Shown piece after piece: positions 13,380 through 13,617 of a stretch of 43,915 bases of DNA. The position numbers and the translations under genes are program-made. The notes under the pieces are model-generated. The model was not told the origin of the DNA. It was given only the letters and a program-made list of their open reading frames with translations, and made no database searches. This DNA is from an uncultured Clostridia bacterium (GTDB taxonomy: Bacteria; Bacillota; Clostridia; UBA1381): the NCBI GenBank assembly GCA_944391225.1, contig CALXSS010000011.1, positions 1 through 43,915 of the forward strand, written 5' to 3'. Each line of letters opens with the position of its first letter. Position 1 is the stretch's first letter.

Positions 13380-13617
13380 GTTTATCTTCTAGGCAATTGT
13401 AAAACTCTAAAAGAGTTTTACAATTGCTACCTATTTGATGGGTGCTCGAGGGTGTACCCTCGAATTCAATAAATTTCTGACGACATGCGCGTCAGAAATT
13501 TGGGTTAAAAAAGTTTCAACCATCATATTTTATTTAATCGGATGGAACTTTTTTAACCTACTTTAACCAGATCAATTGTGAAACATAGTTTCACAATTGA
13601 CTATCGTTTATCTTCTA
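13380..13617 (-). repeat. Five-hairpin palindromic element with 12-bp flanking direct repeats
   Basis: The sequence GTTTATCTTCTA occurs at 13380-13391 and again at 13606-13617. Between them lie five separate inverted repeats: 16+16 bp (13393-13408/13412-13427, loop of 3), 8+8 bp (13446-13453/13456-13463), 12+12 bp (13471-13482/13490-13501), 13+13 bp plus CCATC/GATGG (13503-13515/13546-13558) and 13+13 bp (13572-13584/13588-13600). The first four show perfect arms apart from a bulge inside the fourth. The first and last hairpins share CAATTGT. It looks like an inserted non-coding element with target duplication, or a structured pyrG leader. No gene is visible in it. Confidence 0.8.

Follow-up and report, generated by a model that had tools for sequence, protein, structure and literature searches.

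A five-hairpin, MITE-like element upstream of the pyrG Shine-Dalgarno sequence in an uncultured Clostridia bacterium, probably moved by an IS1182-like transposase

The window, by which we mean the whole 43,915-bp stretch of DNA that was analysed, carries pyrG and, as its upstream neighbour, an aminotransferase gene, both on the minus strand. Between the two genes lies a run of five hairpins bounded by a direct repeat, the parts of which are as follows.

11742..13361, minus strand: pyrG (CTP synthase); 28 nt separate its start codon from the element
13378..13389: left target-site duplication, TTGTTTATCTTC, adjoining the pyrG Shine-Dalgarno on its upstream side
13390..13603: putative mobile element, 214 bp, ends TAGGCAATTG...CAATTGACTA
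13390..13405, plus strand: left terminal inverted repeat, TAGGCAATTGTAAAAC
13393..13427: hairpin 1, arms of 16 bp (13393-13408/13412-13427)
13446..13463: hairpin 2, arms of 8 bp (13446-13453/13456-13463)
13471..13501: hairpin 3, signature CYGACGACATGYGCGTCRG, arms of 12 bp (13471-13482/13490-13501)
13503..13558: hairpin 4, the longest stem, AAAAAAGTTTC...GGAACTTTTTT, arms of 19 bp with two mismatches (13503-13521/13540-13558)
13572..13600: hairpin 5, arms of 13 bp (13572-13584/13588-13600)
13588..13603, minus strand: right terminal inverted repeat, reverse complement TAGTCAATTGTGAAAC (TAGGCAATTG in other copies)
13604..13615: right target-site duplication, TCGTTTATCTTC
13736..14917, minus strand: aminotransferase gene, which likewise precedes pyrG in 11 genus relatives without the element

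An earlier note on this DNA had described five inverted repeats and a flanking direct repeat, and both were confirmed at the place it gave. The arm lengths that it listed (16, 8, 12, 13 and 13 bp) held for four of the hairpins, but hairpin 4 proved to be a 19-bp stem with two mismatches. Similarly, the flanking repeat can be read as a 16-bp match with a single mismatch (13376-13391 against 13602-13617), but the true duplication is 10-12 bp: of the extra 'TA', the left copy belongs to the end of the element and the right copy matches by chance. The element has no coding capacity, as had been claimed: no ORF of at least 80 aa lies inside it, and a mechanical ORF at 13137-13472 overlaps only part of it. 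The hairpin stretch folded better than every shuffled sequence with which it was compared, with z = -11.0 as RNA and z = -13.6 as DNA. Between the element and the aminotransferase gene, a spacer of ∼118 bp (13618-13735) is present that is missing in relatives.

Copies of the element, which the earlier note had proposed to seek in the host genome and its relatives, were found in its own draft genome (2.63 Mb in 144 contigs) and in 4 of 15 genus relatives; the other 11 gave no match, and weaker matches were detected in other genera of the family. Elsewhere in the genome lie ∼13 copies that bear the core and many one-hairpin copies of 35-41 bp, and the pattern of the end hairpins occurs at 29 places (compared with 0 for the reversed control), although the copy count is too low in this assembly, in which many contigs end inside copies. 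Most copies carry the terminal inverted repeat TAGGCAATTGtAAAAC at both ends. The sizes are discrete: 35 or 41 bp (hairpin 5 or hairpin 1 alone), 214, 276, 340, and 406 bp. The 214-bp length is common to the element at pyrG and four other copies of the same genome (five in all: window, C22, C8, C7, and C15), hairpin 1 alone forms a 41-bp mobile unit elsewhere (C111 and C8), and hairpin 5 alone forms one of 35 bp (C9, C22, and C65). Larger copies with extra hairpins are C28, C2, C3, C19, and others broken off at contig ends. The expanded lengths of 276, 340, and 406 bp result from three-hairpin cassettes: one or two of these, each of about 64 bp, lie within the loop of hairpin 2, and one of 62 bp, which is present in G007 too, lies within that of hairpin 3.

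Direct repeats of 9-16 bp abut the ends TAGG...CCTA in all 15 copies that have both ends inside a contig. Their sequence varies by site (for example, TTTATAAATTTT, TACGATAGAT, TAAATTAATAT, and TAAAATAAATTATAT), and the median duplication score was 10 for true flanks compared with 1 for swapped flank pairs. The 35- and 41-bp solo hairpins are flanked by target-site duplications too; therefore, hairpin 5 and hairpin 1 each behave like the smallest unit able to move, and the 214-bp form resembles a composite in which the two enclose a core. Terminal inverted repeats, a target-site duplication, and multiple dispersed copies without coding capacity mark the element, as far as its mobility can be read from sequence, as MITE-like, non-autonomous mobile DNA. 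The palindromic units, the modular build with a variable number of internal cassettes, and the solo hairpins would also suit a repeat of the BOX/REP/RUP type that is moved via single-stranded hairpins by an IS200/IS605-like (RAYT) HUH transposase. However, to our knowledge HUH elements make no target duplication, and duplications of 9-16 bp flank 15 of 15 intact copies here, the ends of which match a presumed DDE-type IS (see below); we therefore consider this origin very unlikely.

The MITE-like reading agrees with what is found at pyrG in relatives. In the 11 genus relatives that share the gene pair, the aminotransferase gene is followed directly by pyrG across a short gap without the element, and no element was found at pyrG in any of the 13 genus relatives examined. 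The earlier suggestion that a non-autonomous element had inserted here is thus borne out by dispersed copies, by duplications that differ between sites, and by relatives that have the gene pair without it. Before insertion, the pyrG site would have held a single copy of (T)TGTTTATCTTC; the comparison with element-free genomes that the note had called for yielded the gene pair without the element but not the exact empty site, the spacer of the relatives being too diverged. In one relative, G014 (L301), a different small palindrome, GAATTGCAAAGCTATATTTTGCAATTG, lies directly upstream of pyrG in the same gene gap, without a clear duplication, and is possibly an old solo hairpin.

Because the pyrG start codon follows 28 nt downstream of the element, the latter is probably transcribed within the pyrG leader. 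Such a position, together with the folding as RNA (z = -11), is what would be expected of a cis-regulatory RNA of pyrG (an attenuator or riboswitch), such as a CTP-responsive leader. We give this explanation next to no probability, as the element is absent from pyrG in 13 of 13 genus relatives, its other copies precede unrelated genes, no credible Rfam match was obtained at gathering or relaxed thresholds, and the terminator-like site is weak and on the opposite strand. Hence, a role in the pyrG transcript, which the earlier note had entertained, does not stand as the function of the element.

The position at pyrG is typical of the copies as a whole. In a strict test, which called for a Shine-Dalgarno-like motif followed by 40 or more open codons and left out four uninformative contig-end fragments, 17 of 21 own-genome copies lay 22-34 nt from a start codon, and the remaining four lay at 52, 59, or 108 nt or had no start codon; random non-coding points of the window passed this test at a rate of 4-5%. 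When the start-codon test was relaxed, every one of the 22 intact genus copies was 22-32 nt from a start codon (for C19 and C111, the two tests give an ambiguous picture). The sequence that is duplicated immediately precedes the Shine-Dalgarno on its 5' side, in either orientation. At several sites, a TATAAT-like sequence, read by eye, lies a few bases further upstream, and therefore the target may be the transcript start. The near-fixed distance upstream of ribosome-binding sites amounts to a very precise choice of target, and no report of Shine-Dalgarno targeting by a bacterial transposon was found in the open-access literature searched.

We aligned ten elements of the genus (213-215 bp), in which 96% of the cells pair. 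Ten pairs have changed on both sides, giving 31 such cells compared with 11 in shuffles, and the covariation signal was lost when the partners were slid; hairpins 2 and 4 hardly vary and are hence uninformative in this respect. Compensatory change between the arms, the absence of which would have spoken against a structured element, was thus seen. The earlier note had taken the perfect arms as a sign of recent insertion or of strong selection for structure, and the covariation in the genus arms, as well as that of hairpin 3 across Clostridia, is partly in line with the latter, but covariation in palindromes can come from either selection or arm-to-arm correction during replication. Between its own species and relatives, the core (element positions 51-172) is 89% identical and the end hairpins 62%, and this higher conservation suggests that the core has a function of its own.

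A pattern built from the top of hairpin 3 matched at least 119 stretches in the species collection, and of the matches listed, at least ∼100 are from Oscillospiraceae, Christensenellaceae, and other Clostridia, with 11 to 58 per genome in some and one to six in others. The scan fixes the top by construction and leaves eight flanking pairs free; among the matches listed, 428 of 552 cells of these pairs can pair compared with 251 in shuffles, and the columns mix AT, TA, GC, and CG types. Matches in Actinobacteria and Proteobacteria were rejected as chance, the lower stem being unpaired and the flanking pairing much weaker. One contig (L184, CANQJC010000024.1) carries two hairpin-3 elements in opposite orientation ∼140 bp apart. 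The distant elements have other ends (CAGYTTGTCRAA, pattern CAG[CA]YTGTCRAA...), and a fraction of them are flanked by duplications of 20-42 bp that are mostly whole terminator palindromes. In Oscillibacter sp. ER4, the genome of which also holds hairpin elements, an IS1182-family IS (L314:1390-2958) that begins with CAGTCTGTC lies between two identical 29-bp copies of a terminator palindrome. Many distant elements and this IS thus have a palindrome or terminator as target, whereas in the genus of the window it is an AT-rich leader instead. An IS1182 transposase was not found in 10 of 12 distant genomes with elements, although multicopy IS are often lost from drafts. No Rfam family describing the element was found, nor was any paper in the open-access literature searched, the exact motif text included, and nothing there on Oscillospiraceae MITEs or IS1182 MITEs describes it.

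These observations also bear on the possibility that the elements are a domesticated structured RNA family, spread by transposition, in which hairpins 3-4 do a job for the host, such as stabilising the mRNA 5' end or insulating leaders or terminators. The conservation of the core over the ends, the base of hairpin 3 that covaries across Clostridia (though the scan required the top to match), the location of copies in leaders here and frequently at terminators elsewhere, and the retention of the hairpin in some Oscillibacter copies that have lost their visible ends all favor it. We nevertheless regard it as doubtful, a minor possibility, in view of the patchy occurrence (11 of the 15 genus relatives gave no match), the lack of a conserved gene context, and the site-specific duplications, which are typical of a mobile parasite.

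For the MITE-like element, a partner IS was sought. Six contigs of the genome start in two kinds of sequence, ending TAGCCGATTGTAAAACTC or TTTTACAATCGCCTA, three each, and look like the two ends of a three-copy IS with an unassembled body; inside the TAGCCGATTGTAAAACTC-type end lie a promoter-like sequence and the beginning of an ORF. These presumed IS ends carry the same terminal repeat as the hairpin element, the flanks at C47 and C32 share TTACAACCAAA, a duplication sized like that of the hairpin element, and in seven cases, in this and other genomes, the gene-side IS end lies 25-33 nt from the start codon of a long ORF. The order also contains a full related IS of 1191 bp (G032:C49, L299:1501-2691), with ends TAGCCATTTGTAAAAG and TAGGTGATTGTAAAAG and a disrupted transposase with DUF772 (E 7e-11). 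It is named IS1182-like because its match to the NCBIfam IS1182 model is weak and below the cut-off (E 4.5e-4); the distant IS L246 and L314 passed the model. L246:726-2283 (G018:C7) is an intact IS1182-family IS with ends TCAGCTTGTAGACAAA, unlike palindromes on each side, and no duplication. In the window's own assembly, searches with PF01609 and PF05598 (DUF772) were negative and no intact transposase of the presumed IS was found; the presumed IS end had no match in plasmids, nor did the hairpin element in phages. Based on the shared terminal repeat, duplication length, and target, we infer that the element is probably driven by an IS1182-like transposase in its own species.

Other candidates for the partner were rejected. 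An end of the presumed IS lies ∼30 nt upstream of an IS481-family transposase gene (G040:C175, L258:1-1053), and this transposase is outside the IS, as an insertion target. Sites with the pattern TAGSCGATTG in genomes of the family are mostly chance, and a 363-aa ORF beside one of them encodes a hydrolase-like protein.

Overall, the best explanation, to which we assign a probability of about 0.88, is a non-autonomous, MITE-like 214-bp element of five hairpins that is probably moved in trans by an IS1182-like IS. In this scheme, the DDE transposase of the IS (DUF772) would act on the element in trans and would favor DNA that is easily opened or forms hairpins, namely the AT-rich start of leaders here and terminator palindromes in other Clostridia. 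Insertion would leave the ribosome-binding site and the gene intact, and copies would survive because of this. The element itself may depend on the conserved core (hairpins 3-4), which could, for example, bind a protein or, folded within the leader RNA, maintain expression of the downstream gene. A more far-reaching version, which we think unlikely, is that of a Clostridia-wide family with one invariant hairpin, in which ends are swapped between transposase systems with differing targets (leaders or terminators) and an active core guides insertion or protects host gene expression, making it a structured-RNA parasite and not a passive MITE. If confirmed, the MITE-like element would represent a natural route for DNA into 5' leaders without harm to genes, by which hairpins are added to many mRNAs at once. 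The family also accounts for many unannotated repeats and contig breaks in assemblies of gut Clostridia.

Like bacterial MITEs, the element is short and non-coding, shares terminal inverted repeats with a presumed IS, and has target-site duplications and many copies. Unlike them, it consists almost entirely of consecutive hairpins, has a conserved core common to elements with different ends, and occurs in 35-41 bp solo forms and with loop cassettes in steps of ∼62-66 bp. A DUF772/DDE transposase would be common to the element's presumed partner and IS1182-family IS, such as IS1272 and TnSha1. IS1272 targets hairpins and terminators, and its insertion deletes the stem-loop without a duplication (PMC4923244, PMC5678879), but duplication of the whole stem-loop is a possible pathway in the IS1272 model (PMC5678879). 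The whole-terminator duplication at related elements and at an IS1182-family IS is thus permitted by the published model and was unseen by its authors. In contrast to IS1272, the whole palindrome is duplicated in distant relatives, and insertions in the genus go into the leader, immediately before the Shine-Dalgarno. BOX elements of streptococci are mosaic repeats that combine end modules with internal hairpin modules in varying number. The element resembles them in this modular architecture, but its cassettes lie inside hairpin loops and its ends match a presumed IS. It differs from REPs, for which we know of no target duplication, in its duplications of 9-16 bp or of whole terminators. REP elements with GTAG or CGTC tags are, like the elements described here, small palindromic intergenic repeats (PMC3733652), and a text search of PMC3733652 gave no mention of Clostridia or Firmicutes. 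What is new, in our view, is the build from multiple hairpins with a core that stays invariant across Clostridia, the precise choice of leaders as target, the duplication of whole terminators, and the solo hairpins.
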